From positions 63,501 through 127,500 of the forward strand of contig JAIGNY010001621.1 in NCBI GenBank assembly GCA_020152595.1: DNA of 64,000 nucleotides, given 5' to 3'. This DNA is from Chiridota heheva (lineage: Eukaryota; Echinodermata; Holothuroidea; Apodida; Chiridotidae). Position numbers and translations under genes: made by a program. Below are positions 2,705 through 54,238 of this stretch, in pieces; within the stretch, counting starts at the first letter, position 1, and each line of letters begins with the position of its first letter. Under the pieces are notes generated by a model. The model did no database searches. It was not told where the DNA came from and saw nothing but the letters and a program-made list of their open reading frames with translations.

Positions 2705-3257
2705 TAGTCCGGTCCACGCTTCCGAACAGGAGATCTTCCGATCGGGAAATTTGTTGTCATTATAACCCACAATGCACCTTTCCAAATTCAAATCGCTCTA
2801 AATGTTTAACAGGTTTAAACCAAAGGTAGGAAAAATCTATGCGAAATCTTCAAATTTTAATGATGTAACAGAACGATAGAATTATTTTTTCCATTTTTAC
2901 CAGCGCAAATTTGACTTTCACCAGGGAATTTGTATGTAATCTTTAAAAATTAATTTCATTATTTTTTGAAGAACAGATTTTAACATTTTAATCACCAGCA
3001 AAATTGAGCTCAAATTATACAGAAATATTAATTCCAATATCATTTTCAAAGTATACAACTTCAGAATTACAGAATTTGACAAGCAAAAAATAATAATAAC
3101 GGCTGAACTTATTAGCAGCAATTTTAATTATGGTGACTGCGCATGTCTCGATCTCAAAACAGGGGATCTCAGGAGCGTGGACCGATCAGGAGCGTGGACC
3201 GATCAGGAGCGTGGACCGATCAGGAGCGTGGACCGATCAGGAGCGTGGACAGAACTG
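2705..3257 (+). mobile_element. CAGTCCGG-end non-autonomous element, copy A (subfamily 2)
   Basis: The left end reads TAGTCCGGTCCACGC and the right end is the inverted form (reverse complement CAGTTCTGTCCACGC). The interior matches copy G at 53747-54238 nearly throughout, including the stretch around ACCAGCGCAAATTTGACTTTC and the segment beginning CGGCTGAACTTATTAGCA. It contains a CCGATCGGG palindrome near the left end. The possible flanking duplication (TTATT/CTGTT) is poor. A short minus-strand reading frame inside it also occurs in copy G but looks like a by-product of shared DNA rather than a gene. Confidence 0.65.
3171..3250 (+). repeat. 17 bp tandem repeat, 4.7 copies
   Basis: The unit AGGAGCGTGGACCGATC starts at 3171, 3188, 3205, 3222 and 3239 (partial) with no mismatches. 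It lies at the right terminus of element copy A and includes the GTCCACGC-type terminal sequence, so the element's own end has been amplified. Confidence 0.95.
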
Positions 3258-4729
3258 CTGTTAGAAATTGCCATACATTCCAGCATGTGTTCATATAGAC
3301 CTTGAACTGTTTAAGGTAGTTCGCTTTGGTCTGTTGGTTAAAATGATGTCAGCAAGTTCCTCGAAATATGACCTATTTTTTCAGAAGAAATCAAATTGAA
3401 AAACAAGAATAGAACAAGATTAAGTTCACGGGGTCTGACTTCAGTTTAATCAAAGGATTATAGGTCTGACATTGTCTGGAACAGATCGTTTGAGAGAAAT
3501 ATTCAAGTACTGGATTAAAGTAAATGGAGGATTACTCCAAATTGTCTCTTAAGAATCTATTATTTTGGCAAGAGATGGATGCATTTTAGATAATAATCAT
3601 CACTATTTTGATGGGCATCAAATGGGAAATTTCTATACCGCTCCGTCTGTTCGTGGCGTATAGTTAGATTGTTTTCACTAGGCCGAAGACATTAAATATT
3701 CCTACAATTGACTAATCATGATCTAAAAACTTTCCGATTTACAGAATAGTCAGATAGAATACGCCTAATCTTGTAGAAGCTTTTTTATATTTTATTAATT
3801 TTCAGAAAGATGTTTATATTTCCGGTGCGGTGGACGGGGTGGAGGTGTGATAGGTATGCAACTGTCGTAAATGCTCCCAAAAATATATAAGTGTTGTGCC
3901 ACCAGATTCAAACATCTTCCGCCGTCATGCAATCCTGCATGCGAACTACAATGATTTCCTTCCAAAACGTCCCACAGATACTGGGATGTCGCTAGGGTCT
4001 TCTGAATGAGGGGAAGGGGTGTAGAGGGTGATTCGTGAAGGTGCCTGAGGAGGAACTGTTGATTTTTCAACTGTCATGTTCATTTTTCCAACTGGCGTAC
4101 TGTAGTCAGGTAGTAACATCTCTGCACCGATATCCCCTTTAAATGGCAAAATCATTTTCAGTGTCACAGCGAAACATTTCACATGTTGAATCTAGATTCT
4201 ATAAATAGGCTAAGAATAATTGCACCCCCAGATAAGTGTGCTGTGATGAAAGTAGAGGGCGGTAACTCATCCGTTGCTTCACGATAGGGACGTAATTCTT
4301 GGGTCTATAAATTAAAAAAAGGAGAGGGGGAGGGGAGGAGGAGGCTGCATAAAAACCAACGTTTTAACTAAGATGTACATCTTGAATCCAAAGATTGCAT
4401 AACACTTTTTTCTTTACATTTTGCTTTTTTTACTTTCGGCCAAGTGTGTGTGTGGTGAGAAAGTGTCCACAAAAATTTGATCAAAATGCTGAAATATTGG
4501 TCCAGAAAGTTGATATATACTTAAAATAAAAGCACAAAACAAATGATTTTAAAGTCTTTTTTCACCCTTAATCTTTCATAATATTTTTAATGCAAATTTC
4601 AAATCTTTGGACGGCGATACTCCATTACAAATGGAAACATTTACACAATAAATTTACATAAGTACAATAATACAATATTGCCATCTTTATGTATAAACAT
4701 TACAAATTAAATCCTATAATTTTCTTACT
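3258..4729. other. Non-coding DNA, no gene recognised
   Basis: Only short, unsupported open frames occur here. A purine-rich run (GGAGAGGGGGAGGGGAGGAG) lies near 4320. No repeat family could be assigned. Confidence 0.5.
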
Positions 4730-4733
4730 TTAA

Positions 4734-4964
4734 AGGAGCACTAAACCGAAAATTGAGAGCGTTCGTTTTTGTTAATTTCACAAATATATTATTCACAAAA
4801 GATCAATAAACTTCATGCCTCCATAGCTCACAGACGATTCGAGGGCAAATGTTGCTTGAATATTCATATTAATCGCAATATTTCTATACCGTTGCGTCTA
4901 AAAGAAGCATTTGATTTTATGGGACCCCCAAATATGCGCCCTCACTTTTCGGTCTAGTGCTCCT
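4734..4964 (+). mobile_element. TTAA-flanked MITE, family T1, copy 1
   Basis: A 231 bp element is bounded on both sides by TTAA (4730-4733 and 4965-4968). Its inverted termini are AGGAGCACTAAACCGAAAA on the left and, as reverse complement, AGGAGCACTAGACCGAAAA on the right. A second copy lies inverted at 43031-43260. The TTAA duplication is the hallmark of piggyBac and Kolobok transposons. The AGGA start does not match the usual piggyBac CCC terminus, so a Kolobok-like origin is my inference. There is no coding capacity. Confidence 0.85.
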
Positions 4965-4968
4965 TTAA

Positions 4969-5819
4969 TTAAAAACATAAGCATTTATTCAGTAATCAGC
5001 TGGGATATTAACCGCATTTATGACAAGAACAAAATAAATAACGTTTTTTTATAATAAAAAACACGCCTGGAAATTTCACGTTTTTAAAGAGTGACTAAAG
5101 AAAATCTATTGTACACTTCATGAAATATCAAAATAGCATTACACGAATAGTGTGAAAAAACATTTGCGAGCATTTTAGAACGACAAGTTAATCAGTTAAT
5201 TACAGTGTTTTAATTGTATTATTCTTGTGTTTGCAGTTTGATAATCAATCAATGTTCAATTATGTCTAAAAGACATTCAATTCTGGAATAGTGGGACTAA
5301 AATGTTCACGACTGTTTTTTCCCCATGCAGTATCTGACCTGACCTTTCACCCCACTTTCGAATATTTGATCTTAGGACTCATGAGGGACAAAAGTTGTTG
5401 CTATTAAACACAAACGATCTAAGCTGAGGACTAACACAGCTAACAAAGAACGTCCCTTCCTTCAAGTGCGTTAGGAGTCTCTTAAAGCTTCCTCTCCAAA
5501 CAGAGGCAGAGTGTTCGAGTGGTCCTTTTAGCGCAGACTGATGACGTAACCGTATTTATTCTTACATCTTGAGGAACTTGCACTATAATCAGTGGAACAA
5601 CAAGACAAACTCTCTGATACAAAACGTCTGGATACAAAAGTTTGCACCGATGTTTTGTTCTCACGAAAAGAAGCAACTTGAGTGACAAAATCACTATTTG
5701 TTATGCCATACCATTCAGCCATTAACAAAGAATCTCATGGGTATGCACAAGTGCCGTTTTGTTCAAAGTGGATATTTTTAAAGATCTGTATAGACAGGTA
5801 ACAACTTTGGGCTTAACTG
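4969..5819. other. Non-coding DNA, no gene recognised
   Basis: AT-rich DNA with short unsupported frames. Two overlapping minus-strand frames around 5482-5728 share the same DNA and neither resembles a known protein. Confidence 0.5.
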
Positions 5820-6312
5820 GGAGAAAATAATATATAGCTCATGAAAATAGTAACAAATTTTATCAAAATCAGTTAAAATTTGACTATTTTACAGCATTTT
5901 GATTTTAGAGCACTGTCATAATAAATTGTACAAATTTGATTGTAATTTTGTGACATCACAACAAAAAAACCTATTAATTTCCTTTTGTTAATGTATTCTT
6001 CAATATCTGATTATACTGTTCTTTGAATGGGAGAAGTTGAATATGACCAACATATCTATATCCTCATGCCCTCTATAAAAATTTAGCAGGAGAAGAAATT
6101 CTGATGATTTTCAGTGACAAAATTTTGGGGCAGAAATTTAAAGAATTACAATAACAATTTTGAGCTTTCCACTCCTTTCATACATCGAAACTTTTGCATT
6201 CATTACAAATTCTTGGAAGTATGATTAATCAGGTAATCATAACGTGGAAACGATACTTCATTGTGTTCCGCTGCTCTTTTCAGAATTTGAAGCTTTCTAA
6301 GGATTATAATGT
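5820..6312 (+). repeat. Dispersed host repeat (HR), copy 2
   Basis: Homologous by eye to 2280-2704 and 42930-43635. Landmarks are ATCAGTTAAAATTTGAC, TTTTACAGCATTTT, TTTGAATGGGAGAAGTTG (also at ~43352) and ATTTTCAGTGA. Copy B of the CAGTCCGG element begins immediately after it, at about the same offset from the landmark as in copies A and F. Confidence 0.55.
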
Positions 6313-6839
6313 TAGTTATGGTTCGTACCGCTGATAAGTCCCCCGATCGGGAGACTCAAGCATGCGCACTGAGCTTACAGTGATATATGGAAGTCGCCAT
6401 TTTTATTGTGAAGTTTCAGTCATATAACGCTTATCAGTTATTTCATTGAAGGTTTAAAACAAAGTTTGCTTTGTTCATATTCAATTTCGCGAAAGTAAAA
6501 CAACAGCTATCACGCAGTTATTGCTAAAGAATTTTCACAAATCCACGTTATGTCTTATAATTTCAGAAAACCTTGTTAAAGCGCGACTGCCTAACGATAA
6601 CACACAATAAGAATTTATAACTTCTCAAAAACCGCACGGTAAATTTTAAAAGCGCACGTTGAAAAGGTATTTCATTTGCCATTAATTGAAATCGTGAAGA
6701 AAAATTTGAACCCTTTGCAGTGGCCGAGTTCCCCGCGATCGAAATGTGTCTAATTATTTTCTTATTCCTATACAAACTTTAAATTTGAATAGATGCATCG
6801 TGGGATACTTCTGTAAAGGATCCCGTACGAAGCGGACCG
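6313..6839 (+). mobile_element. CAGTCCGG-end non-autonomous element, copy B
   Basis: The left terminus is diverged (TAGTTATGGTTCGTACC). The right terminus reads GTACGAAGCGGACCG. A CCCCCGATCGGGAG palindrome sits at about 6350. The interior is nearly identical to copies C and E and, inverted, to D and F: GCATGCGCACTGAGCTTACA, TTTCAGAAAACCTTGTTAAA and GCGCGACTGCCTAACG are shared. No clean 5 bp flanking duplication remains (AATGT/ATATA). Confidence 0.75.
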
Positions 6840-7530
6840 ATATAACTGTCCATATACATTTAACGAAAATGGTGCTCCGAATCTTTTTAAAGTACAAGGA
6901 TACCTAACAATGGCCGTAATATGAAAATTTACCGAAAATCATTAGCTAGTAACAAATCAAAACCAAAACAGTTAAACATTAATCATTTTACATATTTATT
7001 TCAATTTCTGTATCGGACTCCGCAATATGCAAATTTGAGTTGATAAACTTATGCAATCTGGCGATTCAGTATGCCCGTGGTATAGAAGCGGGAGGGAGGC
7101 AGGGGGAGTTTAGAAGTCCCCTAGCTATTTCGAGGTGGGGCTAAACTACATTTCATAATCGAACGTTTCGAGCAGATAACGCATTGTTGCATGTCGCAAC
7201 TTTAAACTTGGGGAGAAGAGCCCCCTCGCTCACAATTTAGCTGTACACCACTGGTTGAACTTACAAAGTAGATTAAAAAGGACATTAGAAAATAAAGGAA
7301 TTTTGGTCAGCCTTATATCAACAGATAAATAAGGAAATAAGATGTTGTATCAGAACTTGAGGTTCTTTCTTTCATAACTGAAGTATATAGATTTATGAGG
7401 TGTCACAATCTGACAATAGTACTTCAAAAAGACACTAATTTAAACATGAAAAACATCATTTTGAACAAAAAATTGATTTAATTGTTGTTACAATCATTTC
7501 AGAAATTTCATCTTTGTAAAGTATGATTAA
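6840..7530. other. Non-coding DNA, no gene recognised
   Basis: Nothing recognisable except CTGTACACCACTGG near 7240, which resembles a weathered hAT-type terminus (reverse complement CCAGTGGTGTACAG). Confidence 0.45.
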
Positions 7531-7788
7531 AGGAAAGGTATCGTCTCCTAAATAATATTGGAAGTGAACGCCGCCGTGATGGTAACGTCACTTCCGGTTT
7601 TCAACTTTCCTTATTGATTCCGAGAAATCTGTCAAGTTTTCAATAACAAATGTAGGCTTTAATGTTCGGTCCGCTGAATGTGTTATCGAAACATCGCAGA
7701 TTTCTTGCAATCAATAGGAAAAATTGCAGACCGTTGCAAGCACGGCGGCGTTCACTTCTGAATGTGTTTATGGGACAATACATTTCCA
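7531..7788 (+). mobile_element. TTAA-flanked MITE, family T2, full copy
   Basis: A 258 bp element flanked by TTAA at 7527-7530 and 7789-7792. The left arm starts AGGAAAGGTATCGTC and reaches GAAGTGAACGCCGCCGTG. The right arm is its inverse (GCACGGCGGCGTTCACTTC, then GGGACAATACATTTCC). Long arms with a short centre would form a hairpin. Single-arm relatives lie at 26701-26797 and 33186-33280. A Kolobok-like origin is inferred from the TTAA duplication only. Confidence 0.85.
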
Positions 7789-7815
7789 TTAACAAATGAA
7801 AGTATCATGTAGAAT

Positions 7816-8273
<458 letters not shown>

Positions 8274-9550
8274 AGCCTCTTAAAATGCTCAAAAAATGGT
8301 GGGAAATTATCAGAGCGAAAGTTAAATTCAAATAAAGACATGTAAATAAGTGTGAATTGTATACATTTTTCAAGATTCTTCAAAATCTGTTGCATGAAAT
8401 CGAAGATTGAAAGACCTTGGTAGCAAACAAGTTCGAATCTTCCCTTTTTTTGAAGATTGAACGGATGTCTGGAAAACTGTTTGCACTAACATTCATGCTG
8501 CACCATTCCGTTTCACAGTAATAAGATCGTTCTGTGCGTAACTGTCAAATTCATTATGTTCCAAAATCACCTGGTAGGGGTTAAAGTGCAAATATGTATT
8601 TTGGTTGACAATATAAACAATATTACGCAGACAATGTGGCTCTTTACTGATGGCCACGTTTAGAACATTTCAGCAAAATGTTGGAATTTTGCTCTTTTAC
8701 GCTCTTTTTAATTGGCTTGAAATGTTAAATTAAAGAAAAGTATTCTTGATCAATTCCGTTTTAGGTATTGATGTAAACAAATCAAAATCTTATTGATTTT
8801 CTGCTTTTCATTATATATTAAAAATAATTTTTAGTTTAATATTTTACCATGATCAATTCTAGTGTAATATGGTTTTCCCACGTATAAACTAAGGCCTATT
8901 ATCATTACTTTGAAACAATTTAATGGACAAGTAAAAAGGATAGCAACTGTGCTGCAATACACATTGTTTTATATCAGTTTGGTGGCACCTTTGAAGAAAG
9001 TTTGTAGACAAGGTTCACAGCATCGATCCTAAAGATATTTTCTAGAGATTTTAAACGAAATTGGCCAGTATATGTTCACGTCAATAATCATGCACTTTGA
9101 TAATCTATAATAATATAGTGAACCATTAAGGTATGACTTCCGCTATGTGGGCATCTTTAATAAATGGCGGATCAAAGATGTATTTTGTGAAGCAAAGATG
9201 CTTTAATTTCTTAACTGCTATGCAAATTGTTAATATCCACAAGACTACAAATTTACGCATTGTGCATGTTGAGCAATTTAGACAGCCTGGGAAAATATAT
9301 CTCTGCTACCATCATTATCTGGAAATGTGCTGTTGTTAATGTATTAGTGCATTACCCTTTTCAACACAGTTACAAGCTATAGTGAGAAATTGTAATTTTA
9401 AAAAGAACGCAGTTTTACACATTTTACAAATGCGCGTAATAAATTACAACAATATAAATTAATTATATTGTTATATGTTTCATTAAAACATTATAAAACG
9501 TACTTTTCTTGGAAGCATGTTGCGAATTTACCTAAGAGATTTAAACACAC
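8274..9550. other. Non-coding DNA, no gene recognised
   Basis: AT-rich DNA with no recognised repeat family or convincing coding stretch. Confidence 0.5.
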
Positions 9551-9805
9551 AATTACAATGACGGGGTCGTCGCCTGCGTATTCGGTTATGATAGTAACAA
9601 TGCTATCACGAAACGCTTAATACGACCCGGACGAGAACACAGGTACGACGTACGGACAGACATAACATCGACAACCAAGTCAATGTCCATGGCCTTTGAT
9701 AACCCAGTTGTGGTGCACTGGCGTGTCTACCCAACCCAGGCTTGAACCCAGGGCCTCGTGGTCTGTAGACATGTATGATAACCGCTACACCACAGTTGGT
9801 AGACA
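9551..9805 (-). mobile_element. tRNA-derived SINE, copy 1
   Basis: Read on the minus strand, the element starts with a tRNA-like head at 9805-9724. It has an A-box-like TGGTGTAGCGGTTATCA (9776-9792), a B-box-like GGTTCAAGCCT (9738-9748), and acceptor-type arms TGTCTACC/GGTAGACA that pair over 8 bp. A non-tRNA body follows, containing GTTATGTCTGTCCGTACG and ending GACCCCGTCATTGTAATT at 9551. The body and head match 49156-49380. The A-box resembles Val/Asp/His-type tRNAs. The T-arm pairing is imperfect, so this is a retroposon and not a functional tRNA gene. Confidence 0.85.
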
Positions 9806-10362
9806 AGAATTTACCTAAAACATGCTCTCCCTTTAAATATACTGTCAATCTACACGACATTTTCTTGACTAGTTTTAAGATAGTTGAAGACAACTGGACG
9901 CAAACTGATGGGAATAAAGTAATGAGTTGTAAACAAGATGCATGCACTGATAATTATCATGAACCCCCGTCGTTATCATCATCTTTTCATCAGCACAAGA
10001 TAATGTGCTTAGAGGACCATTAACAAATAATACACTCAACCAACTTGCATTGAGTTTCGGACAGCTATTGACCAGTCGCCATTATACGAGTAAGACAGAC
10101 AATAGTCGTCATTTGTTAAAAACCTTCTCACTGTCATTTGGTTCAATAACATAATGGCGCATAGAGTGTTTTGTACCCGTGAAGACATACAGGATAAAGC
10201 ACTAATGGTGAATGTAAGAAAGCATACAAGGAGTTTGGTTTAGACTCGGTATTGGCTGGATTTAACTGTGGGAGAGTGTGTGGACAATGCTATGTAATCA
10301 ACTAATCATATACATAAAACGTACTATTTAGATTACAGTCAAACAAGCAGTGGTGAAAGTGA
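9806..10362. other. Non-coding DNA, no gene recognised
   Basis: No protein family or repeat recognised. It separates the SINE from the duplicated DNA 3' of the Fz gene. Confidence 0.45.
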
Positions 10363-11324: not shown

Positions 11325-12968
11325 TTAAACTCGAGTCAATGGAAGTGGCTTCGGATAAGCGGTGGGCTTGGCTATCCGATGCCTTTGTCTTCCCAGCAGA
11401 CGATCTAAGAATTCCCGCCAAGAGTCCAATGTTTTCCCTGTCCAAATCCATACCCCTGAGGTAATTCCAACAACTAAGCACATGAAATATCTAAGCATAT
11501 ATATTGAATAATCAGGTTTGTACACCTGTGAACTCCCCTCACAGGGGCAATTCTGTGACTTTTGCCACTCTTCCCGAGTTTGTTGTTCATAAAAATAGCA
11601 CCCAACAACTATCGTAGCTGGTACCGTGTAAAGTACAGAAAAGATACCAATTCGAATCATTAGTTTTTCTAATTTGTCCGTTTTTCTGCCACCTTGTTTG
11701 ATGACGTTTCTTATTCTAAAGAGAGATACAAATCCAGTTAATAGAAATGTTGAGCCCAAAATGAGATACGCAAAAAGGGGTGCTAAAACAAATGCTCGCA
11801 GTTTGCCGACATCTTGGTTTCCAACATAGCAAATACCGGAAATGGGATCCCCATCGACAGAGCGTAAGAAAAGTATTGTGATGGACTGTATGCTTGGAAC
11901 GACCCAGGCAGCTAGGTGGAAATATTGCGAATAACTCGCAATCGCCTCCGAGCCCCATTTTAATCCGGCGGACAGGAACCAAGTAAATGATAAAATGACC
12001 CACCACAGAGAACTCGCCATTCCGAAATAGTAGATGAGAAGAAATACTGTGGTACATAAAGCAGGACCAGTTGCGCCATATCGCGCGTATTCACCGTCAC
12101 ATGCAACATTTTCATGACCAGATATCAGGCTTATAATAAACCCTGCTGAAACTAACATATAACATCCGCTAAGAAATATAATTGGGCGTTCAGGGTACTG
12201 AAAGCGGTCCATATTGATCATATATGTTAAAACGGTCATTAACGTAGAAAAGAAACAAAATATTGACCATAATGCAATCCAAAATGTAGCGAATGCTCGC
12301 TCGTCGGGTGAACCGTAGGCGCTGTAGCATGACACGGCACAATTCGGAACTTCGCCCGTAACCACTCGATTGAAATAATTGTGTTTTTCTGGAACAAGTT
12401 TAAAAGGTTCATTGCATGAACATGGACAATTTTTAACAGTTACTTTCGAATCTGGATTTACTGGTTTTGTAGGAATTGGAGGCAGCGTTGGTTTGGGCGT
12501 TCCGTTTTCTGATGTATTAAAATCCATGCATAGATTGTTTGGGTTTTCGCCATAAACTGGTAGGTCCTCGCAATGCATTCTGTCGGGCCATGCAAACCCA
12601 TATTGTCTCATGAGAGGGGCGCAGCCCGCTTTTGCCCGTTCACAAACAGAACGGCACGGTGGAAGCGGTTTGGGATAGTTTGTGACACATATAGGTGTGT
12701 ACATACTGCATAAGAAAAACTTGAGATCCGAGGAACATTGTATTTCAACTAAAGGCCAAAATTGATGGACTTCAAGACCTGCTTCGTCTTGCGAATAATG
12801 ATTAAAAGAGTTTGGCATGTACGTTAAATTATAACCAATATCACGGCACATAGGAATAGTAATCGGTTCACACTTCACATCACGTAATGCAGTCACATTA
12901 ATATACAGATGAAAAAAACAAACAGTACAAAAAAGCAGAAAATTCACAGAAATAACTGGAGTAGCCAT
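11325..12968 (-). CDS. fz5/8: Frizzled receptor, Fz5/8 subfamily (intronless coding region)
   Basis: This encodes a 547-residue seven-pass Wnt receptor of the plasma membrane that signals through Dishevelled. A signal peptide (about 1-27) precedes the cysteine-rich Wnt-binding domain, whose ten conserved cysteines are all present: 33, 41, 78, 87, 94, 105, 109, 116, 133, 147. The blocks NHYSQDEAGLEVHQFWPLVE and RQYGFAWPDRM are near-diagnostic of Fz5/8. N-glycosylation sequons occur at 24, 47, 151 and 155. A Pro-rich linker and a second Cys cluster (181-214) lead to seven membrane helices between ~225 and 511. The Dishevelled-docking KTxxxW motif is KTLDSW (512-517). The 36-residue tail ends PLTRV, a class I PDZ-type end matching the LSxV ends of Fz5/8 rather than the ETxV ends of Fz1/2/7 and Fz4. 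Start: the ATG at 12966-12968 is the first in-frame ATG. An in-frame GTG two codons upstream is not a plausible eukaryotic start. A single coding exon is usual for this subfamily. No frameshift or missing key residue is seen. Confidence 0.97.
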   Translation of the reverse strand: MATPVISVNFLLFCTVCFFHLYINVTALRDVKCEPITIPMCRDIGYNLTYMPNSFNHYSQDEAGLEVHQFWPLVEIQCSSDLKFFLCSMYTPICVTNYPKPLPPCRSVCERAKAGCAPLMRQYGFAWPDRMHCEDLPVYGENPNNLCMDFNTSENGTPKPTLPPIPTKPVNPDSKVTVKNCPCSCNEPFKLVPEKHNYFNRVVTGEVPNCAVSCYSAYGSPDERAFATFWIALWSIFCFFSTLMTVLTYMINMDRFQYPERPIIFLSGCYMLVSAGFIISLISGHENVACDGEYARYGATGPALCTTVFLLIYYFGMASSLWWVILSFTWFLSAGLKWGSEAIASYSQYFHLAAWVVPSIQSITILFLRSVDGDPISGICYVGNQDVGKLRAFVLAPLFAYLILGSTFLLTGFVSLFRIRNVIKQGGRKTDKLEKLMIRIGIFSVLYTVPATIVVGCYFYEQQTREEWQKSQNCPCEGSSQVYKPDYSIYMLRYFMCLVVGITSGVWIWTGKTLDSWREFLDRLLGRQRHRIAKPTAYPKPLPLTRV

Positions 12969-15031
<2,063 letters not shown>

Positions 15032-28660: not shown

Positions 28661-29242
28661 GCCTGACAGCTGTAAGATCTACAGATCGGCAGACAGTTTA
28701 AGTCGAAGAGGCTTTTTGATGATTATGTCCTCGAACAGCAGTCAACACAAATTCTAGTTGACTTTAATAAATATCCACACACTGAATGAATGAAGGCAGG
28801 TACGGTAATTCTCCATGTAAGAGAATAAGACACAGTTAATTGTAATTGATGAAAACAATATTTTATTTCTGAAAATATTGTCACAATGCTCCAAATCGAG
28901 AAGATTGCATCAGCAGGTCAGCATGAGTCACTGTATGATCATCGTATAATTTTCTCCAACTGCGCCACCCAATTACTGAATCATATAGTGCCATTGCACA
29001 ATCTTCGTCTTCCTCAGGAATGTTGTGAAAGGTCGCATGTTACAGTGGTCACTGAAGATGAAGGAAAGTCTCTGTTTATTGGCGGCGTGCCAAAGACTCA
29101 AAACCTTTCAATCAGATTTTGTTGCACTTGAATTAAGATAGAAAAGATTTATAAAGAAATACCAAGTTGCCTTATATAACTCATCACAAAATTTGCATAA
29201 AACATGCAAAATGATGCATGAGATTTAAAACTGCTGTAAATT
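28661..29242. other. Non-coding DNA, no gene recognised
   Basis: An 81-codon plus-strand frame at 28886-29131 has no recognised family. Part of 29150-29242 resembles the HR repeat. Confidence 0.4.
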
Positions 29243-29837
29243 CAGATCGGTTCGTACCGCCGATCGGGGTACTTAATAAGTCTCCCGATCAGGAGACTCA
29301 AGCATGCGTACTGAGCTTACAGTGATATATGGAAGCCACCATTTTTATTGTGAAGTTTCAGTCATAGACGCTTATCAGTCGTTTCATTGAAGGTTTGTAA
29401 CAAAGTTTGCTTGTTCATGTTCAATTTCGAGAAAGTAAAACAACTTCGTTACTATCACGCGGTTATTGCTAAATGATTTTCACAAATCCCCAAGTTATTT
29501 TTTATAATTTCAGAAAACCTTGTTAAAGCGCGACTGCCTAATGGTAACACATAATAAGAATTCATCACTTTTCTTCAAATTTCTCGAAAACCGCACTGTG
29601 AATTCTAAAAGCGCACGGTGAAAAGATCATTCATATGCCATTTATTCTAAATCGTGAAGAAAAATTTGAACCCTTTACAGTGGTTGAGTACCCCGCACTC
29701 GAAATGTATCTGATTTTTATATGTTATTCCTATACAAACTTTGACTTTGGATAGATGCATTGTGGAATACTTTTATAAAGGATCCCTATTTAGTTTTGAA
29801 CAGTCTTGTTCTCCCGATCGGGGTATGAACCAGACTA
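29243..29837 (+). mobile_element. CAGTCCGG-end non-autonomous element, copy C
   Basis: A 595 bp element bounded by perfect 5 bp direct repeats AAATT (29238-29242 and 29838-29842). The left end is CAGATCGGTTCGTACCGCC and the right end, inverted, is TAGTCTGGTTCATACCCC. CCGATCGGGG and CTCCCGATCGGGG occur at the two ends. The interior matches copies B and E in this orientation. No coding capacity. Confidence 0.92.
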
Positions 29838-31753
29838 AAATTGGTGAATGCTTAAATTATTTTGATGAAATATTTTGCTTCTATGCTGGTTTTTAATAGA
29901 TTTTAAAGCAATTCAGCTAATGTTGCACATTCACTGCAAAACAACGAATAATCAAATTTGACCATGGCCAACTCTGCACCATAACATGGTCAAATTTGAC
30001 CATAATATTGTAATTATGGACAAAATCGACCATATTATGTTAAGTTGATTCGGTACTGATTTTGCCTATGTTATTGTAAAAACTTGAATTCCTTTTTTAA
30101 AGAGTGTATTTTAAAGGAAGCAATACAAATGTGTTTTGCCTTTGTAAGTCTGTGTCATGTATGTTCTAAATAGCAAAGCAAAGCAACAAAAGCTGCGAGA
30201 CATCTTGCGATGGCTTCAACTTAAAGAGGCGATATCGTCATATGTGCACAATATTTAGAACTCCTTTCAAATGTTTTGATTGGTTGAAATTTTGCCGCGC
30301 GATTCGTTGTCTCGTATTGCAAGGTATATAGTTATTTACAATGCTCTGAAGGACATTACGCGAGTTAGCCCAGTTGTTTACGGCGATCAGAAGTAGTTTT
30401 TTTTCTCAAACCAACAGTCATGAGTTCGAGCCCCGGTAGAATGTTTATTACACTTTTGCTTTTATCTTCTTCTTTTTTTTTCTCAGTAATTCACATTTAG
30501 TGACTATTATTGTAGTATTATAATACTGATATTTCACTTTCGCTTTTTCTTTCTGACAAACGCGTTGAAAAAAAAGAAAACAGTTTCTCGTCACAGCAAA
30601 GAGTAACGTAATGCGCTGTGTATGTAATTCGGCACACACAGCGTACATGCTAGTGTCTGGATGTACAAACAGACAGTGGATCGGATCTTGCGTCAACAAC
30701 CGGAAGTGACGTCAAAATATGGCATCCCTAATTTCACCGTATTTTAATGAGACGAGCCTCCCTCTTTAATCAGTTAATAAGAAATACATTCTTGAAAAAT
30801 ATTTACTTTTTAAATGACATTGAATTATTTGTTTACCGGTACCAAAATTCGGCTCAACGACTCAGTGCAGTTTATAACATGGTATAGATCTGAGTTTCAT
30901 AAATCACTGAGCCTCCAACAATCTCCTGATGTATCTCTAGGGGTTTATCCAGCCTTTCTGATGTGGGGAGTGGGCGCCGAGAAAAAATGCTAATGGTATC
31001 AAATATTTTCGAACATTTTGTCAAAATATCAGTTTATAACACTCTAAGGATATTAAGGAGGTTAAATTAAAAAGAGAAGAAAAAGTTAAATGGGGTCGTA
31101 CGTCCCGTCGACCCCTGGCTACACACTTTATCCTGATCAGGACCATACAGGGATATGCTAAAGTAACATGTCCCTTGATCATGCATGACGAAACCCATCA
31201 ATTGATCATGTGAAGCTTTTCGGGCGTATTTCGTTTTTTTCCTGGGAGGGGGAAGGGGAGCTTTGGCCCCATAAAAAAGGTTCTCATATAGGACGTTATA
31301 ATTCATCCTACCTTAATCAAAAATTAAAGGTTTTTGTCTTAAGTTGTAGATTTTGGTTCAAAAATGAAGATTGTGAAAGTTGAAGATGTTTGGTCTAGAA
31401 TTCTATCTAAAATGAACAATAATTCAGCCTCGATACGAATAAAACATGGCAACATTCTCTGTTTTCTATGATTCATTTAATAGTTCAATCAAAATTTCGG
31501 CTTTGAAATAAACCTCTTCTAAGGTAGACGGCTTGCAGTGGACCATGACAAGATGACTGTATAGTTTGGTACTGTTTTGGATACATCATTGTCAAAGGCA
31601 CGTCTCCAATCATGACGAAAATATATCATGAATTAATGTTGATGGTACATAACCTAACCATCAGACCATTTACAGCTGCCTGTATATCTGTATATGCTAA
31701 TGGATCAAATATATGGCTAAAATGCTAATAGTATCAAATGGTAAAAAAAATAT
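29838..31753. other. Non-coding DNA with palindromes and a weak tRNA-like motif pair
   Basis: 29843-29940 resembles 33680-33760 (part of the HR repeat). An 18 bp palindrome, ATGGTCAAATTTGACCAT, lies at 29986-30003, and its half recurs inverted at ~29952. At 30366-30376 TAGCCCAGTTG and at 30422-30432 GAGTTCGAGCC resemble tRNA A and B boxes, but a run of eight T lies between them. No gene is supported. Confidence 0.45.
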
Positions 31754-32371
31754 TAGTCCGGTTCGTACCCCCGATCGGGAGAACAGTTTTGTTCTCCCGA
31801 TCGGAAGAACAGTTTTGTTCTCCCGATCGGGAGTTCCTTTACAGAAGTATCCCACAATGCATCTATCCAAATTCAAAGCTTGTATGGGAATAACTAAGAA
31901 TCAGACACATTTCGAGCGCAGGAAATTCAACCACTGCGAAGTGTTCAAATTTTTCTTCACGATTTAAAATAATGGCATATGAATGATCTTTTTACCGTAC
32001 GCTTTTAAATTTCACTATGAGGTTTTCGAGAAAGTTGTAGAAAAGTGATGAACTCTTACCATGTGTTACCGTTAGGCAATCGCGCTTTAACAAGATTTTC
32101 TGAAATTATGAGAAATAACTTGGGGATTTTTGAAAATTATTTAGCAATAACTGCGTGATAGGAACGAAGTTGTTTTACTTTCGCGAAATTGTACACGAAC
32201 AAAGCAAACTTTGTTACGAACCTTCAATGAAACGACTGATAATCGTCTATGACTGAAACTTTACAATCAAAATTGCGGCTTCCATATATTACTGTAAGCT
32301 CAGTGCGCATGCTTCAGTCTCCCCATCGGGGGATTTATTGAGTCCCCCAGTTGGCGGTACGAACCGAATTG
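31754..32371 (-). mobile_element. CAGTCCGG-end non-autonomous element, copy D (inverted)
   Basis: A 618 bp element. The plus-strand left end is TAGTCCGGTTCGTACCCCC; the right end is GGCGGTACGAACCGAATTG. Flanks are AATAT (31749-31753) and AACAT (32372-32376), a 4-of-5 match. The left end carries three near-copies of CTCCCGATCGGGAG spaced by AACAGTTTTGTT, so the palindrome has been multiplied. The interior is the inverse of copies B, C and E. Confidence 0.9.
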
Positions 32372-36645: not shown

Positions 36646-37217
36646 CACTTTGATTCGTACCGCCAATCGGGGAACTCAATAAGTTCCCGATCGGGAAGCA
36701 TGCGTACTGAGCTTACAGTGATATATGGAAGCCACCATTCTTATTATGAAGTTTCAGTCATAGACGCTTATCAGTCGTTTCATTGACGGTTTGTAACAAA
36801 GTTTACTTTGTTCATGTTCAATTTCGCGAAAGTAAAACAACTTCGTTACTGTCACGCAGTTATTACTAAATGATTTTCACAAATCCCCAACTTATTTTTC
36901 ATAATTTCAGAAAACCTTGTTAAAGTGCGACTGCCTAACGGTAACACATAATAAGAATTCATCACTTTTCTTCAAGTTTCTCGAAAACCGCAGGGCTTAT
37001 TTTTAAAGCGCACAGTGAAAAGATCATTCATATGCCATTATTTCAAATCGTTAAAAAAAAGTTGAACCCTTCGCAGTGATTGAGTAGTGTCTGATTCTTA
37101 TGTTATTCCTATACAATCTTTTGAATTTGGATAGATGCATTTTGAGATACTTTTGTAAACGATTTCCCGATTGGGAGAACAAAACTGTTCTCCCGATCGG
37201 GGGTACGAGTCGGACTG
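36646..37217 (+). mobile_element. CAGTCCGG-end non-autonomous element, copy E
   Basis: A 572 bp element flanked by perfect 5 bp repeats ATATT (36641-36645 and 37218-37222). The left end is diverged (CACTTTGATTCGTACCGCC). The right end, inverted, is CAGTCCGACTCGTACCCCC. CTCCCGATCGGGGG is at the right end and TTCCCGATCGGGAA at the left. The interior matches copies B and C. Confidence 0.9.
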
Positions 37218-37222
37218 ATATT

Positions 37223-43635: not shown

Positions 43636-44216
43636 CAGTTCGGTTCGTACCCTCGATCTGGAGACCAGCTCTCGATCAGGAGAGATTTTACGGATGTATC
43701 CCACAATTCATCTATCCAACTTCAAATTTTGTATAGGGATAACAATAATCAGACACATTTCGAGTGCGGGAACTCAACCGCTGCGAAGGTTGAAAGTTCT
43801 TCTTCACGATATGAAATAATATTATATGAATGATCTTTTCACCGTGCGTTTTTAAAATTTACCGTGGAATTTTTGAGAAATTTGAAGGAAAATGGTGACT
43901 CCTTATTACGTGTTACCGTTAGGCAGTCGCTCTTTAACAAGATTTTTTGAAAAGAAAAAAAAATAGATTTAAAAAAATTAAGTTTTGTTCGGTAATTATT
44001 TTTGACTAACATTTTAATAAATATTATAAAGTCAAATCACACTTTTGTTTCATCATTTTAGTGCAATAAAACAAAGTGTTCAGAAATAATACACACATAA
44101 AGCGACTACACCAAAGACTATGGCGAAGCTTCGTTATTGAATAGACTCGTACTGCGCATGTCCCGATCTCCCGAACGGGCAGGGTGATCTCCCGATCGGG
44201 GGTACGAACCGGACTG
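43636..44216 (-). mobile_element. CAGTCCGG-end non-autonomous element, copy F (inverted)
   Basis: A 581 bp element flanked by perfect 5 bp repeats ATAAT (43631-43635 and 44217-44221). Ends are CAGTTCGGTTCGTACCCTC and, inverted, CAGTCCGGTTCGTACCCCC. CTCCCGATCGGGGG is at the right end. The first half matches copy D. Most of the right half differs and has its own A-rich stretch, so this copy is rearranged or chimaeric. Confidence 0.9.
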
Positions 44217-44869: not shown

Positions 44870-45489
44870 CAGTCCGGTAACATGCCTATTAATGGGAACA
44901 TAAATATTCCTAAAAATGGGAACATTTTGCTACATAAAAGCCACCATTTTGTGATATTTCCCATGATCCTTTGCTATCCTAATGTTAAAGCCTTATGCAA
45001 TGTTACATATTCAAATTTGAAACACGTTTGGGAAAAATATCTTTGCTAGGGGAAACTTAAACTAAAACTCATGAAAATACCTTCATTACTGTCATAGCTA
45101 GAGCTTTTCCACTCCCATTTGATATGTTCACCATGCCGTTTTCGAAATATTAGTAAAAAATAGAGCTAGGCTTTTAGGCGCGAAACGGCCATTTTGAAAA
45201 TTTAAATATTTTTCAACACAATGATTTTTAATATTTTAAGTACATAAATTAGAAACTATGGCATTCTATCGGAACATCTAAACAATATGTTTTCAAATTC
45301 TTGTGTGTTATAAATGTTCTTATTAATAGAAACTATGACATTCTATCAGAAAATCTGCTTTAATCTATTAATTAATATAATCTATTAATTAATAGAAACT
45401 ATGACATTCTATCGGAAAATATGAACAATGTGACTTCAATATTCTCGTGTGTTATAAATGTTCTTATTAATAGGCATGCTTCCGGACTG
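44870..45489 (+). mobile_element. CAGTCCGG-end non-autonomous element, copy H (subfamily 3)
   Basis: A 620 bp element with perfect 5 bp flanks GTAAG (44865-44869 and 45490-45494). The left terminus CAGTCCGGTAACATGCC continues through TATTAATGGGAACAT. The right terminus, inverted, is CAGTCCGGAAGCATGCC, then TATTAATAAGAACAT, so the arms are ~30 bp. The interior differs from the other copies and holds an internal duplication of GAAACTATGACATTCTATC with AAATGTTCTTATTAATA. It lacks the GATCGGG palindromes. Shared termini and duplication length place it in the same superfamily. Confidence 0.9.
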
Positions 45490-46246: not shown

Positions 46247-46249
46247 TAG

Positions 46250-49155
46250 GTCGTACGCACTTTGTTACTGTAATGGCGTTGATTAATTTGTTCTGATGTT
46301 TAAAATCTCAAATTAGAGACCTCCTGATGTTAATTCCTTCCTTTCCTTAGTAAAACAGTTACGTAAGCTTCAAGTCAAAAGTTGTTTACAGTATTTTTTA
46401 AGTCCTAACAGCCTAATATCAGCATGGAAGCATAAATACGGAGGTCAGAAAAGAAAGAATTTGCGGGCTCCCTGTTAAGCATTTCGCAAGTAACAATTAC
46501 AGAAGGATTAAAATAGATTAGAGGGCACTGTACCACTGTAAGTCCTCTTGAGCCGGGGTAAAGAGTGTGCTTGAAGATGTCTATCAAGCTTGAGTGTGTC
46601 AATCATTGTATCTCAAATAGCTGGTCACTGAAAGAGAATTTCCTCCCCGTGTAATTACTATCAAAGACTGCAATAATGAACCAAAATCGACTTTAGAAGT
46701 GGTATTACCAGATTATGTCATCATGGCAAAGTTGAACTGTTGTACACAAATTTTCCCTCAAAACTGCATGCAATTTCTTTTTAATGGCGCTGGCCAGAGT
46801 AGTGGTGCCATTTCGCTATTCTGGATCAATAACAGGTAACAAACAGGCGAAGGTAAGTAGCTATGTCAAGAAACTGTGATTTCCGTGCAAATTTGTGCGA
46901 TTTATGTCGAAACCCGAAAATAAGAAAAACATTTCAATGTTGTATAAAACAAACCTTCTTTTGCCGAATTATTTTTGCAATTTTCACCCAAAATTATTTC
47001 TAGCGTCCAAAGGCAAAGTAAAATAACAGATTTTTTTTTATCATGAACAATGTAATCTGGCCACGTATTTGTTGATATGAATATCTTTACATACAGACAT
47101 ATACGTATTTCTGTATTTGTGCAGTTTCATGTTTCTTTCAAGTTTTTATGCAATGAGTCGATATTTTTTTTGATGAATAAATAAAATGAATGAATTATAA
47201 GAATATATATATATATATAAAAATTATAATTTATATAATTATTATTATTGTTATATTATCAAATATGAATAAGAAAAATGAATAAGAGGAATACTTATCT
47301 AAGAAAATATATTCATGATATACCGTGTTTTTTTTGGTATAATATACCGTATAAACAGATAAACATTTACATTATTTTAAAGTAGTTCTTACATAAAGTA
47401 TATACCGGTAGCCTTTCTTTAATCTTAATTGAAGGGCTTAATTAAGATGAATATTGACCAAGAGTGCACAAGACGTCTTTTCTCGATCCATTAAGATGTA
47501 CGTAGTACCCAAACTCTTAGGTAATACATGTTTAATAAAGTTAGTAGTATATCAGTGTCAAAACTCCATTTACCAGTTTACCCGACAGAAGAACTGAAAA
47601 ACGGCATCACAGGTTAAATTTTCTCTGTAATTGCAAATATTCGTCATTAAAAATTGACAACTTATACAATTGAACGATTTATAAAATGTTTTCAAATTCT
47701 TCAGATTACAAATCGCAGGTAAGTATAGTTCAATCAAATTCTATTTTCAGATTCAGTAGTTTGTGTTACTTACAAATCGTGACACCAACGTCAAAAATGT
47801 GACCAGCAATTTTCTCTTCATACATTCTCCACTTTTCTTAAGTTTTTGGAAATTCTATAATAGTTGGAGACAAAGAAATACCTAGTTTGAGACTGAGCTT
47901 ATTCTGCAAGTCAGTCACCCAAGAAACGGTTAACATAGTATTTATATTAGGTGCAGTGAGTTTTTGAAAAGTGAGGGGGTAGGGGGTACTTTTCAAGTTA
48001 TATATCCCCATCCTAACCTGTGGATATGGCTTTTTTCATTTTCAAAAAAGGCACTTTTGTCATTTTTCGGAAAAAATGTGTGGGGGCAAGTGCCCCAGGT
48101 TTTGTACCTATGGTGGGGTGGTCGGGTGGTTACGATAAATCATAACCATTTCTATATAGAAGTCACAAAATCCAACTTTTCAGGTCTATCTGTCTGTTGT
48201 CAGTCTTTTTAAACTACATCGGTCTAGCGTTCTTATGCGCAGCTATTCATGGGGTGGGGTGGGTATGCTTGATTGTGATTATAGCAGTTTGTCCAGAAGG
48301 AAACGAATCATCGATATTCACCCCCTACCAAAGGTTTGAGAACAACCCACTCCCTTCCTGCTCCTACCTGGGATGAATCATGCATCGCAGAAAATGAGAG
48401 TGCATCAATGCATCAGTTGTGAAAACAGTTTGAAGATTAATAAAGACAGATAATTAGAAGAAGATTCTTTAAATTAAAAAATGACCACTCCAATTGTTGT
48501 ATCTGGTGAACTGGACTGAGGAATTAACATCAGACGTGGAGCCATGAGTATTAGGCGTTGGGCGTGGGAACCGATCACTCAGTTGAGTGTGCTCATGAAT
48601 TGGAGCAAGCATAATGGACCAATGAGGTATGGGGATAAATATACATATATATAATGATTGACCAAAATCGGAAAGGGGGAGGGGCGGGGTACATGTACCC
48701 TGCACCATGCACAGTAATCTTTTTCCATGTGCTTTCGTACATGTTTGTTGTCACTGTGCATGTCTCCAGTGACGTCATATAGTACACGCCCCTGCCATTT
48801 ATTTGGTGTAGCTGGGGATGAGTGAGGGAAGGTTCAAGATTATTTACCTGCAATTGTATAGTTAGTTACTGAGGATAGGCCTATATGAAATTGGAGAAAA
48901 AATATGTAGAGACTATATAGGCACTACTTAAGTGACATAAAATGGAGTAACAATCGGAGCACATAACATTAATTCCTGACAAAAGACTTCTATGACCACG
49001 TGACCATTTCGTAAATGATAACTTAAGCATGTTTTAACTCCTTTACGTTTTTGTTTTCTACTTTTCTCTTTGTGTATTGTATGACTTATTTCATATTCTT
49101 ATCAGCTTATCAGAAATAGGGAAACATTTCAATTTTCAGAGAGAGAGAGTTTATC
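46250..49155. other. Non-coding DNA, no gene recognised
   Basis: Short AT run near 47205-47220. No repeat family or convincing frame. The GC-richer piece around 48480-48850 has overlapping minus-strand frames in all phases, none with a known domain. Confidence 0.5.
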
Positions 49156-49380
49156 AATTACAATGACGGGGTCGTCGCCTGCGTATTCGGTTATGATAGT
49201 ACAAATGCTATTTAATACGACCCGGACGAGAACACAGGTACGACGTGCGGACAGACATAACATCGACAACCAAGTCAATGTCCACGGCCTTTGATAACCT
49301 TTAGTCTACCCACCCCAGGATTGAACCCGGGGCCTCGTGGTCTTAAGGTATGATAACCGCTACACCACAGTAGGTAGACA
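49156..49380 (-). mobile_element. tRNA-derived SINE, copy 2
   Basis: Matches copy 1 (9551-9805) from GACCCCGTCATTG at the 3' end to the tRNA-like head at 49303-49380. The head has acceptor-type arms TGTCTACC/GGGTAGACT, A-box TGGTGTAGCGGTTATCA and B-box GGTTCAATCCT. It is shorter by small deletions in body and head. Flanking target duplications are not evident. Confidence 0.85.
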
Positions 49381-52300
49381 TGTCAGGTCTTTAGTTAAAC
49401 AATCTGGTTTAATGCAAATCAGGCATTCATTATTGAATCTGTTTTTTTGCTTTTTTTCTTCTTTTCTAAATCCCCAAGAATTGACTTTTGAGTGGCATGC
49501 AAGTAAAAGGTCTGGTATGCTGGCTTTGTAGAATTTAAATTTAAAATTTTTAGAAATGACCGGGCCGCATAAAAAAAATGAGAAGCTATATCTGTATATG
49601 GCTTTTCTGAAAATGTGGCTTTTGTGTGGATTTTTCGAGAATTGTTTGGCCACAAAAAGATATAATTTGGCTTTTTGATCATCAGCATTTTTTTTTTTTT
49701 TTTTGCTAGTCTGCTAGTCTCTGGCTGTATAGAGATTTGCTTGGCTGTAAATATCTTATGTGGCTTCATGATGGCCCATTCTTCAAAGACTTTGATGAAG
49801 AAAAAGGTTTATTTTTTAATTTCATTACTTTTATACCACGTGATATTTTGCATGTTTCAGAAGTTACGTAATAACATTTTTGTTTTATATTTAGTACTAC
49901 ACTTTACCCCTCGCAGATAAACTCCTGGACCAGTGGACCGGCAGTAGCCGATTCCTTTCAATATTTAATATTTTCTTGACTTGATTACAGCTTAACTTTT
50001 AACAATTTCAGCTTAATTTTTTTTTAAAAAAAAAAAAAATGATTTGGCGTTTTGCGCCTGGGATGATCTACCAAACCATGGTTGTGATACAAGAACAATC
50101 TGGATTACTAAGTAGGTTGATATTTGTCATCATATCGTTCAATACTTATGAGTTATTTCATTCGCTCCTCGTTGTGTGTGTTCCATTTGTTGATGGATGG
50201 GTATATTTTGACAGACTGAGAATGTCAAGCGTAAATGGAACATGTTTTGTGATTTCTTCGAATCTTCAACCAGAGAGATGGGATATACCATTTCCCTGCT
50301 GGAACCGCTCCGAATTTGATCTGTGTGGAAATATGAAAAACAAAGTGGTACCTTTAGTCGGTTCTGAACACACATATTATCGTATATAGTCTAAACTGAG
50401 GGGGTACATTTGACAGAAAGGATGAATTTCGTTTACTATGGGTATTTTCAAATGTTGTAGTCTATTACTAAATGACTATATGGTTGATACCTAGTCACGG
50501 TATGGTGACCATGCAGGACGCTGTACGCATAAACGACAAAGGGCGAAACTCAAGGTGAATGCACTTTCCATGACCTGATGACTAGAGTAAGGGCGGACGG
50601 GCAGGAGGTGTCGCCCTTTAAAAACTTATATAGCCACCCATGGAGGCATAACGTACTTTACTGGATCTAACAAACTCTTTTTTCCCTTGTTTCATATCCT
50701 CATTGGAAGTATCAACCAAAGAAAGTGCTCTCGCTGGATTTTCGCCACTTTGCCCTGACTTCTTTCCACCACCCCGGCCCTACGTAACACCCCTTTCCAT
50801 CAATAATTGAAACTAGCGACGTAGATGGCAGAGCATCAAGTTCTGAACAGAACAGGTTTGCTTTCTTTCTGACTTATCAGATTATAGCTGATCATAGTCC
50901 CCAAAAATAAGTTTAAATATGCGTGACGTCGTAATTTATGCCTAGTCCAAGATCACGTGATTCTATGATAAATTATCTATGATAAATGTTCTCACATCAC
51001 TCATATAACATCTTCGCATCAAAATGCTGATAAAATGCAGCCTGGCGTTTTCCAACGGTGTATGTGGGGAGGGGGTGCGTGGGGAGGGGAGGAGAGGGGC
51101 ATAACTTTCCTCTTGGCGGAGGTGGGAAGTTCACAACCACCCGTTTGTTATTTTGCGTCGGTTATTGCAACAACACTCTCCTCAAAGCCCAACTGTATAT
51201 CTCAAACTAACTCACTAACGTTGTAATCCCAAAGAAATTAATTTATTTTCATAAATAACACTATGATGAACTTCCTTCTAACGTTGTGATGCTGGACAAC
51301 CCTTCTCACAACAGCACAATTCTTTTCTTTTGAAAACGTCTGATAAAGTCATTTGACTTTCCGACAACTTTGTCGATAAAAGCACTGAAAGCACTGGTGA
51401 TGGGTTCGATTCATAGTTGTCATTTGTGTAATTGATATGATGTTTAGTCTTCTTACATGTCTTATACATCATTCGATTTTACAGGCAATTTTTGTGTTAA
51501 CATGGAGATTATAACTATTTAGCAATATAATTGAAAGTTTTTGGGCAAAACATTGACTCTAATCATGACAAGACAATCAGTAATAGGTTGGGAATGCCAG
51601 ACACCACTGGGATTAATAGCTTCCCACTTCATGTTTGTGACTCCCAGGTACAGTGCACCTCAGAATGTCTCATCATATACCCATTATAATACCAATTATC
51701 ACACACACTTGTACTTAATTCACAATGGCTCACAGGCCTAGAGTGTATTTACACTTAGCCGTGTATTTACATTTGCCTATGCATGTATGAATCGTGTCAA
51801 ATAAGTTTTCATATCGTTTCACCACAGAAGCTTTTTCTCGAAAATCCACCATACTGCCATAACACACCGAAAAACTTTCTCAGATCTTCTCAGTTTGTGC
51901 GGTTTTGAGGTAAGGATCATTTTGGGAATATTTTAATGCAAAACGTTCCTCAATAAGAACTTTTAAAATAAGTTTACTCGCCGCAAATTTGTGTAAAAAA
52001 TATCATATACTAAATGATTTTCATTTATGTCCATTTTAAGGACTTATTTGTATTTTTGATGTCCTGCCTTGCAAGATTATACTTGATATTATGCTAATAT
52101 AAAAATATATCATCAAACTCTCTTTTGCAATTCATAATTTGATGAAATTTTACGTTCTATGTTGTTCGTGCACACATTGCAAAGTATATGATTTGTTAGC
52201 AATTTGACAAGTCACTTACGCGCGAGCATCGTACAGTAATCTGAATCTGTCTAGTCTATGCACACGTCACGGCCATTTTCATATCCTTTTGCCTTGCTAA

Positions 52301-52919
52301 AGGTTTAGCATTGCTTTCCCGAGAAAACAATTCTTTTTCACAACCCGAAAATGTTCTTTATCTCACACTTTACTGGGTTTCTCTTTTTTTTTTATGATAA
52401 AACGGAAAAAAGGAAATACATCAAGAACTGTAGAAAACTCTTCAAAAAGATACAAATTAAAAAAAGGTATCGTAAACTACTTTCTTATTGCGAAACACGA
52501 TCAAAGAAAGAAGGAGTTAACGTTTTGCAAAGTTTTTCAACTTCCGGTCGGTTTTGACAAGTAAGAGTCTTCGAACAAGTTCGAATCCATCAAAAATAGG
52601 AGAGCAATCATGTGTGTGGCGCTCTACCGTATTTTTGTCACAGATATATAATAATACATCTGCGATTTTTGTTGGAACAGAAAAGAAAAAAGTTGGCGCT
52701 CTTTGAGAAATGATTTGCAAGTCTTTCGTGATTTATAAAGGTAGCACGATATTAATGAAAACTTAAATTCGGGATCTTTTCAGTATTCTGGGCCCGTTTT
52801 TGAATTCGAATCAAAATGTACGCACACAATAAACCATCAGGCCGCGAGCCGGCCTCTTTGCAGGCGTGGCTAACCTTGAGCATATAGATCGAAATTAGCA
52901 TGTACCGCTCAGATGGCAC
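49381..52919. other. Non-coding DNA, no gene recognised
   Basis: A T-run lies at ~49687-49703 and an A-run just before 50039. A 116-codon plus-strand frame at 50039-50389 starts in the A-run, overlaps a minus-strand frame and matches no family I know. A G-rich run lies at 51063-51103. A 68-codon frame at 52351-52557 is Lys-rich and unassigned. Confidence 0.45.
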
Positions 52920-53680
52920 CGGTTAGAAAATTGCTTAAAATCGTTCGATGGCGAAGCCGTGGTAGGAGTCCAGAGACTGAAGCCCCGGAAGCATTGCGTT
53001 TCTCATAAGTTTGGGAGCAGAACATTGCTTAATAGTGTGTCCTAGTCCCTGGAAGGCTCCAGTGAAAGCCCTGCATTTCTCGCGAATTTTGAGAGCAGAA
53101 AACTGCTTAATGTTGTGTCAACTTTAAGGTTGAAACTTTGTAAGGTGCCCAAGGGGGAAGCCCCTGGAACTTCCTGGTTTCTCGTAATTTTTATAACATG
53201 AAATTGCTTAAACTCATGTCAATTGCAGGGCACTGTTTAGGAAATCGTTTAAAATTAAGAGCGAAGCCCTGGTGATTTTGATAGCAACAAATTACTTAAA
53301 AGGATGTCAAATCTAGGGACGAAGCTTATGGAATATTGCTTTATATTGTGTCAACTCCAAGGATGAAGCCTGGGTATGGGCCTAGATTGCGAAGCATCGG
53401 AAGTCCTACGTTTCTGGTGATTTGGGAAGCAAAAAATAGCTTGAAATTGTAAGCCCGGAAGCTCTAACATTTTCCTTGATTTTGATAACAGGAAATTGTT
53501 TTAAAATGTGTTAAATCTATTGGGCGAAGCAGCTATACGTTTCTCGTGATTTATAAATCAGAACATTTGTTTGACATTGTGTCATGCAAATCTAGGGGCG
53601 AAGCACGGGAAGCATGCATTTCTTGCGATTATGATAGCAGAATTTGTTGTATCATTGTGTCAAATCCAGGTGAACAGGTG
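52920..53680. repeat. Degenerate tandem array, ~70-90 bp unit, about nine units
   Basis: The words GAAGCCC(C)GGAAGC, TTTCTCGTGATTTT, GAGAGCAGAAAATTGCTTAA and TTGTGTCAAATCTAGGG recur in the same order from ~52930 to 53675. Starts of the GCTTAA landmark are near 52933, 53027, 53115, 53206, 53293, 53335, 53429, 53494 and 53563. Units differ in length and sequence, so the array is old. No reading frame runs through it. Confidence 0.75.
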
Positions 53681-53746
53681 AAGTTGAGCGTTCAAAAAAT
53701 GCTCATATGTATGTATCATAAACTCTCAATCCATTACTTTGCTAAA

Positions 53747-54238
53747 CAGTCCGGTTCAGGCTCCCGATCGGGAGATTTTCCAATCGGGAGATTTCTTGTC
53801 ATTATAGCCCATAATGCATCTTTCCAAATTCAAATCTCTGTAAAGAAATACATAACGGTAAAATTGAACTGAGTCAAAGGTAGGAAAAATACATGCGAAA
53901 TATTCAAATTTTATTGGTGTAACAAAACGATGAAATTATTTTCTCCATTTTCACCAGCGCAAATTTGACTTTCACCAGTAAATTTTAATCTTAAAAATTA
54001 ATTTCAATATTTTTTGAAGAGCAGATTTTAACATTTTAATCATCAGCAAAAGCTCAGATTTTACAGAAATATTAATTCCAATATAATTATCAAAGTATAC
54101 AACTTTAGAATGACAGAATTTAACAAGTAAAAAGAAATTAACGGCTGAACTTATTAGCACAAATTTAAATTATGGTCACTGCGCATGTCTTGATCTCCTA
54201 ATCGGGAGATCTCCCAATCGGGAACGTGGAATGGACTG
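53747..54238 (+). mobile_element. CAGTCCGG-end non-autonomous element, copy G (subfamily 2)
   Basis: A 492 bp element. The left end is CAGTCCGGTTCAGGCTCCCG; the right end, inverted, is CAGTCCATTCCACGTTCCCG. Two CCCGATCGGGAG/CCAATCGGGAG motifs occur on the left and two related ones on the right. The interior matches copy A (2705-3257). Flanks CTAAA/TTGAA differ by two transitions. Confidence 0.85.

Follow-up and report, generated by a model that had tools for sequence, protein, structure and literature searches.

Non-autonomous DNA transposons with a 5-bp target duplication in Chiridota heheva, most likely hAT5-like

Ends of hAT elements usually start with CAG, and the termini of Transib elements are CAC. 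Within hAT, groups with 5-bp (hAT5) and 6-bp (hAT6) target duplications are mentioned in PMC12730594, which refers to Kapitonov and Jurka 2007, and hAT5 is called unusual for its 5-bp target site duplications (TSDs) in PMC9004415. The target preference of Hermes is given as nTnnnnAn (PMC10368747). PMC3276498 lists the targets NTNNNNAN for hobo, GTCCGGAC for the P-element (modal TSD 8 bp), GTTNAAC for 1360 (modal TSD 7 bp) and CCANTGG for the Transib elements hopper and transib2 (modal TSD 5). The Drosophila virilis foldback element Tetris carries tandem repeats in its terminal inverted repeats and also occurs as satellite-like arrays (PMC4079207).

We examined a 64-kb window (the whole stretch of DNA analysed), in which the original prediction had placed eight copies, A-H, of a single element family. 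All eight copies were present and proved to belong to mobile elements with a 5-bp duplication; they do not form one family, since their internal sequence gives three. The first includes copy C (29243-29837, + strand), which is flanked by a perfect TSD, AAATT/AAATT (left copy at 29238-29242, given without strand; right copy at 29838-29842). Copy B (6313-6839, +) has degraded ends, is 85% identical to C over 513 bp and has flanks AATGT/ATATA that match at 1/5 positions. Copy D (31754-32371, -) is inverted relative to C, 86% identical to it over 579 bp and flanked by AATAT/AACAT (4/5), and copy E (36646-37217, +) is 86% identical to C over 577 bp with a perfect ATATT/ATATT. Mutually, B, C, D and E are 79-86% alike. 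Copy F (43636-44216, -) is a mosaic and a partial relative of this family: its ends and about 270-330 bp are common with B/C/D/E, the rest is different, and its TSD ATAAT/ATAAT is perfect. The second family consists of A (2705-3257, given without strand) and G (53747-54238, +), 84% identical over 479 bp, with flanks TTATT/CTGTT and CTAAA/TTGAA, each matching at 3/5 positions; the right end of A contains a 17-bp tandem array (3169-3250, 4.8 units). The third and abundant family is represented by copy H (44870-45489, +), which has a perfect TSD GTAAG/GTAAG and gave no match to the other window copies at the threshold used.

Our reading of the flanks agrees with the prediction, in the perfect repeats of C, E, F and H as well as in the 4/5 match of D. 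Given the base composition of the window, at least four perfect 5-bp matches in eight copies at a fixed offset have a p of about 3e-10. The literal sequence CAGTCCGG is found at both ends in H only and at one end in F and G; the remaining ends are variants, for instance CAGATCGG/TAGTCTGG in C and CACTTTGA/CAGTCCGA in E. When up to 3 mismatches were allowed, a 16-base end occurred 8 times in the window versus 0.22 times expected from shuffles. Extra copies beyond A-H were not detected in the window at E 1e-4. In line with the claim that the window has no transposase, none was seen inside the eight copies. Also present in the window are a reverse-transcriptase fragment and an open frame in which Frizzled and Fz domains occur, as would suit animal DNA.

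Across the genome (1.10 Gb in 3744 contigs) the ends of all three families are numerous. Exact matches amounted to 1011+958 for the 24-base H-type end (reversed control 0), 269+269 for the 16-base B/C/D/E-type end (reversed control 0+0) and 197+197 for the 18-base A/G-type end (reversed control 0); viral contigs gave 0 matches to the 24-base H end. The consensus ends are CAGT, and the bases following the shared CAGTCCGG vary by family (TTCGTACC, TCCACGCTCC, TAGCATGCCTATTAAT). We determined an H consensus of 487 bp, in which 30/32 end bases are inverted and all six frames contain stops. Sixteen genomic H copies, 477-498 bp long, are 3.3-6.4% off this consensus; the 20 H loci read were the top of 40 scored among 4185 candidates and are biased to well-kept copies. 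Copy H of the window is 6.4% off the consensus and is longer through an internal duplication near its right end. The H family is short, has inverted ends, lacks coding capacity and is present in many copies, and the target duplication of the B/C/D/E and H copies is of constant length (5 bp), as is characteristic of MITEs. In the window the three families are represented by MITEs of roughly 490-620 bp with CAGTCCGG-type termini, cut-and-paste DNA transposons that are non-autonomous.

The duplication length was assessed in 38 two-ended copies: five from the window itself (C, D, E, F, H), another 11 of B/C/D/E type found at 18 loci, and 22 H-type copies, of which 20 loci supplied 19, L102 one and L103 two. 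Left out of this set were window copies A, B and G, seven loci lacking an end pair, a single H locus and, in L102, two other copies with arrays, of which one is truncated and the other runs off the end of the stretch. Identical 5-bp flanks were found in 25/38 copies (B/C/D/E 9/15, H 16/23), with matches of 4/5 in ten more, 3/5 in two and 2/5 in one. Mean flank identity was 0.91 at length 5 versus 0.23-0.36 at lengths 2-4 and 6-10. Exact flanks of 2, 3 or 8 bp were present in 0 to 3/38 copies and of at least 6 bp in 0/38. The set contains no A/G copy; one A/G copy outside the window (L096, 530-1021) has perfect flanks ATTAT/ATTAT. Among the copies assessed, 5 bp is the only length that stands out, as predicted, and the predicted distinction from elements with 2-, 3- or 8-bp duplications holds with it. 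A search for the empty site of one H copy (L046), using its joined flanks, gave no such site, the hits being the occupied locus itself and some short, incomplete alignments.

The duplicated sequence itself is not random. At position 2 of the duplication we counted A 18, C 16, G 0 and T 42 (38 sites read on both strands, n=76), position 4 being the mirror image. T at 2 or A at 4 accounts for 42/76 (p 2e-5), and G at 2 or C at 4 for 0/76 (p 2e-7). Information content is 0.56 bit at positions 2/4 versus 0.04-0.29 at the other printed positions, the value of 0.29 belonging to an A/T-rich position nine bases upstream. A separate group of 19 single ends, 12 from loci where unusual bases follow the 24-mer of the H end and seven others, gave T at position 2 in 16 and A at position 4 in 10 (p 5e-6), with G at 2 in none and C at 4 in one; this single C counts against a hAT-like target rule. 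The target rule is nTnAn, symmetric and a preference. Compared with the published motifs, nTnAn fits hAT, is common to P, so that it is not diagnostic, and is opposite to Transib.

Transib or RAG-like elements come to mind as well-known animal transposons with 5-bp duplications, a length that hopper and transib2 share with the elements described here. The ends, however, start with CAG (consensus CAGT) and not CAC, and CCANTGG, as we read it, places A at position 2 of the duplication and T at position 4, the reverse of nTnAn. End sequence and target preference both speak against Transib, which the original prediction had likewise disfavoured, and we regard this origin as extremely improbable. 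A P-superfamily transposase with a shortened stagger would account for the target rule, as in the targets of the P-element and of 1360, too, position 2 is T and the penultimate base is A. The genome also has P-like transposase genes: PF21787 gives 46 matches, of which nine lie in open frames of 523-663 aa. Against it, the modal TSDs of these two elements are 8 and 7 bp, lengths found in 0/38 copies here, and no PF21787 match lies near the element ends listed, as judged by eye from lists of which most are partial. We consider a P-type enzyme very unlikely.

The original prediction had excluded hAT on account of the 5-bp length and left the superfamily unassigned. The exclusion fails because hAT groups with a 5-bp duplication are known, and leaving the elements unassigned is not supported either, hAT5 having the same length and nTnAn being hAT-like. 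We consider it probable that the transposase for these MITEs is of the hAT kind, most likely from the described hAT5 group. The likeness comprises the 5-bp duplication, the CAG start of hAT ends and a T...A target preference of hAT type; the comparison with hAT5 itself used the duplication length given in its published description. Hermes and hobo resemble our elements in a symmetric preference for targets that have T in second and A in penultimate place, a feature also of P elements, and differ in their 8-bp duplication, the canonical hAT length, versus 5 bp here. Nothing here requires a new superfamily. A transposase encoded elsewhere would act in trans, binding both inverted ends, excising the element and attacking nTnAn targets by cuts staggered by 5 bp, and gap repair there would then leave the 5-bp duplication. 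The shared CAGTCCGG may be the cleavage-site contact and the family-differing bases inward of it a family-specific binding site. A hAT-kind transposase could recognise CAGTCCGG together with inner motifs that vary by family.

We searched for an autonomous partner by five routes, and in the parts of the genome read a transposase-bearing copy with CAGTCCGG ends was not found. For PF05699, the hAT dimerisation domain, 150 of 1120 candidates were scored and 55 loci were read (30 of about 3 kb, five of 7 kb and 20 of about 2 kb); for PF14291 150 of 500 candidates were scored and two further loci were read. Six hAT loci were also extended upstream. None of the hAT elements at the loci read for these domains is bordered by CAGTCCGG. 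Ends of CAGTCCGG type do occur near some hAT loci (L039, L043 and upstream of L079), as does the 7-mer in L027 and L034; in our reading all of these pieces point away or lie outside the hAT border, and none of them borders a hAT. Six hAT families have shared borders with other ends, namely TAAGGATG, TAGAGCTGTG, one near AGTGTTTGCACC, CATGGGCG, CATTGGCG and CAGCGCCG. Candidate 8-bp duplications were seen at L039, L040 and the L065 locus, the other hAT loci being without readable border. These different ends and the three candidate 8-bp duplications count against hAT5.

Among the apparent candidates, a locus with CAGTCCAG on both sides is not delimited by it, as similarity to two relatives continues past the supposed 3' end, and was discarded. 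A PF14291 match on C637, 2.2 kb from an A/G-type end, belongs to a hAT whose 97%-identical copy (L105) lacks that end. Further ends lie at larger distances, 4.6 kb from a PF05699 match (C3029), 6.9 kb from a PF05699 match and pointing away (C521), and 9 kb from a PF14291 match and pointing away (C406). Facing-end pairs were sought among 100 of 538, 67 of 67, 100 of 1969 and 100 of 394 listed places, distances between lists being judged by eye. The facing ends on C22 are two MITEs facing each other, and those on C36 belong to three H copies with terminal arrays. L091 and L093, considered as a longer element, have some 35 bp beyond the end in common as well and look like two forms of a single locus. 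At 57 places the 24-mer of the H end is followed by unusual bases. Twelve of these places were read: ten hold whole or fragmentary H copies, in L124 another repeat interrupts the sequence, and L119 departs from the H sequence after 83 bp.

These observations bear on a further explanation, that the elements represent a DNA-transposon superfamily still to be described, or some unclassified group that makes 5-bp duplications, with CAGTCCGG and nTnAn as its signature. It would agree with CAGTCCGG-type ends being common to three families with different interiors and being found on no hAT element with a readable border. Since the described hAT5 already has 5-bp duplications and the target preference is hAT-like, we hold such a group to be a rather doubtful source and favour the hAT5 assignment.

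Some H copies carry their own end as a tandem array. The right end of H copies in L102 carries 4-7 head-to-tail repeats of its terminal 74 bp, and most of these units start with CAGTCCGG or a one-base variant. At 305-1230 of this locus the array lies within a clean CTTTA duplication, so either the array travelled with the element or it expanded after the element had landed. Among the H ends listed, other places on C36, C47 and C87 again show spacings of 74-75 bp or double that value, a recurrence that favours the spread of an array-bearing form. In the H consensus position 74 is followed by CAG, the same bases as at the terminus, and this 3-base microhomology could have started the array. In L005 the 85-bp unit consists, in our reading, of 31 bp of flank and 54 bp of end; as the unit includes flank, this array arose after insertion. 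Tetris is similar in being apparently non-autonomous, in having tandem repeats within terminal inverted repeats and in occurring also as satellite-like arrays; its unit is about 220 bp, versus 74 bp here, where the unit starts exactly at the element terminus. One could go further and propose that a transposase lineage beyond all described superfamilies, still encoded in the genome, mobilises the elements of the form CAGTCCGG...CCGGACTG whose 5-bp targets follow nTnAn, some non-autonomous copies carrying their own terminus as a travelling tandem array. We think this unlikely.

In summary, these DNA transposons are real, high in copy number, well defined and non-autonomous; they make a 5-bp duplication and are most likely hAT5-like. 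Three MITE families are now structurally defined by their ends, 5-bp duplication, target rule and copy number, and a 5-bp duplication by itself does not exclude hAT. The 74-bp terminal arrays provide a clear case of a transposon end that has become tandem DNA. If the hAT5 assignment is true, the comparison of nTnAn with nTnnnnAn would imply an enzyme that has retained its contacts with the second base from either cut while its stagger is 3 bp shorter.

Terminal sequences of two of the MITE families, H and B/C/D/E, are tandemly repeated at loci outside the window. At locus L102 the right end of the H element, an abundant family, forms arrays of 74-bp units at positions 305-769, 4246-4545 and 5069-5585, with 4-7 copies of the unit, and a clean 5-bp duplication, CTTTA, encloses one array of this end (305-1230). 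At the B/C/D/E-type end in locus L005 a tandem array of 85-bp units extends from 1717 to 2961, each unit being composed of 31 bp of flank and 54 bp of the element end. A further H right end, at L119 (C2575:67310), departs from the H sequence past 83 bp.

P-like transposase domains (PF21787) gave 46 matches in the genome, for example at C3339:24013, C1505:18895 and C418:97902; nine of the 46 lie within open frames of 523-663 aa.

Loci L091 and L093 are found on separate contigs and apparently represent one locus; about 1.5 kb of repetitive sequence distinguishes the two, which are perhaps uncollapsed haplotypes.

The window also carries, on the minus strand at 11325-13001, a 558-aa open frame that contains a Frizzled (PF01534) and an Fz (PF01392) domain. 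A short repeat, TTAATACGACCCGGACGAG..., is located in the window at 9542-9704 and 49154-49299 and recurs in L003, L043, L053, L056, L077, L083, L088 and L099, the L099 copy sitting within a MITE copy.
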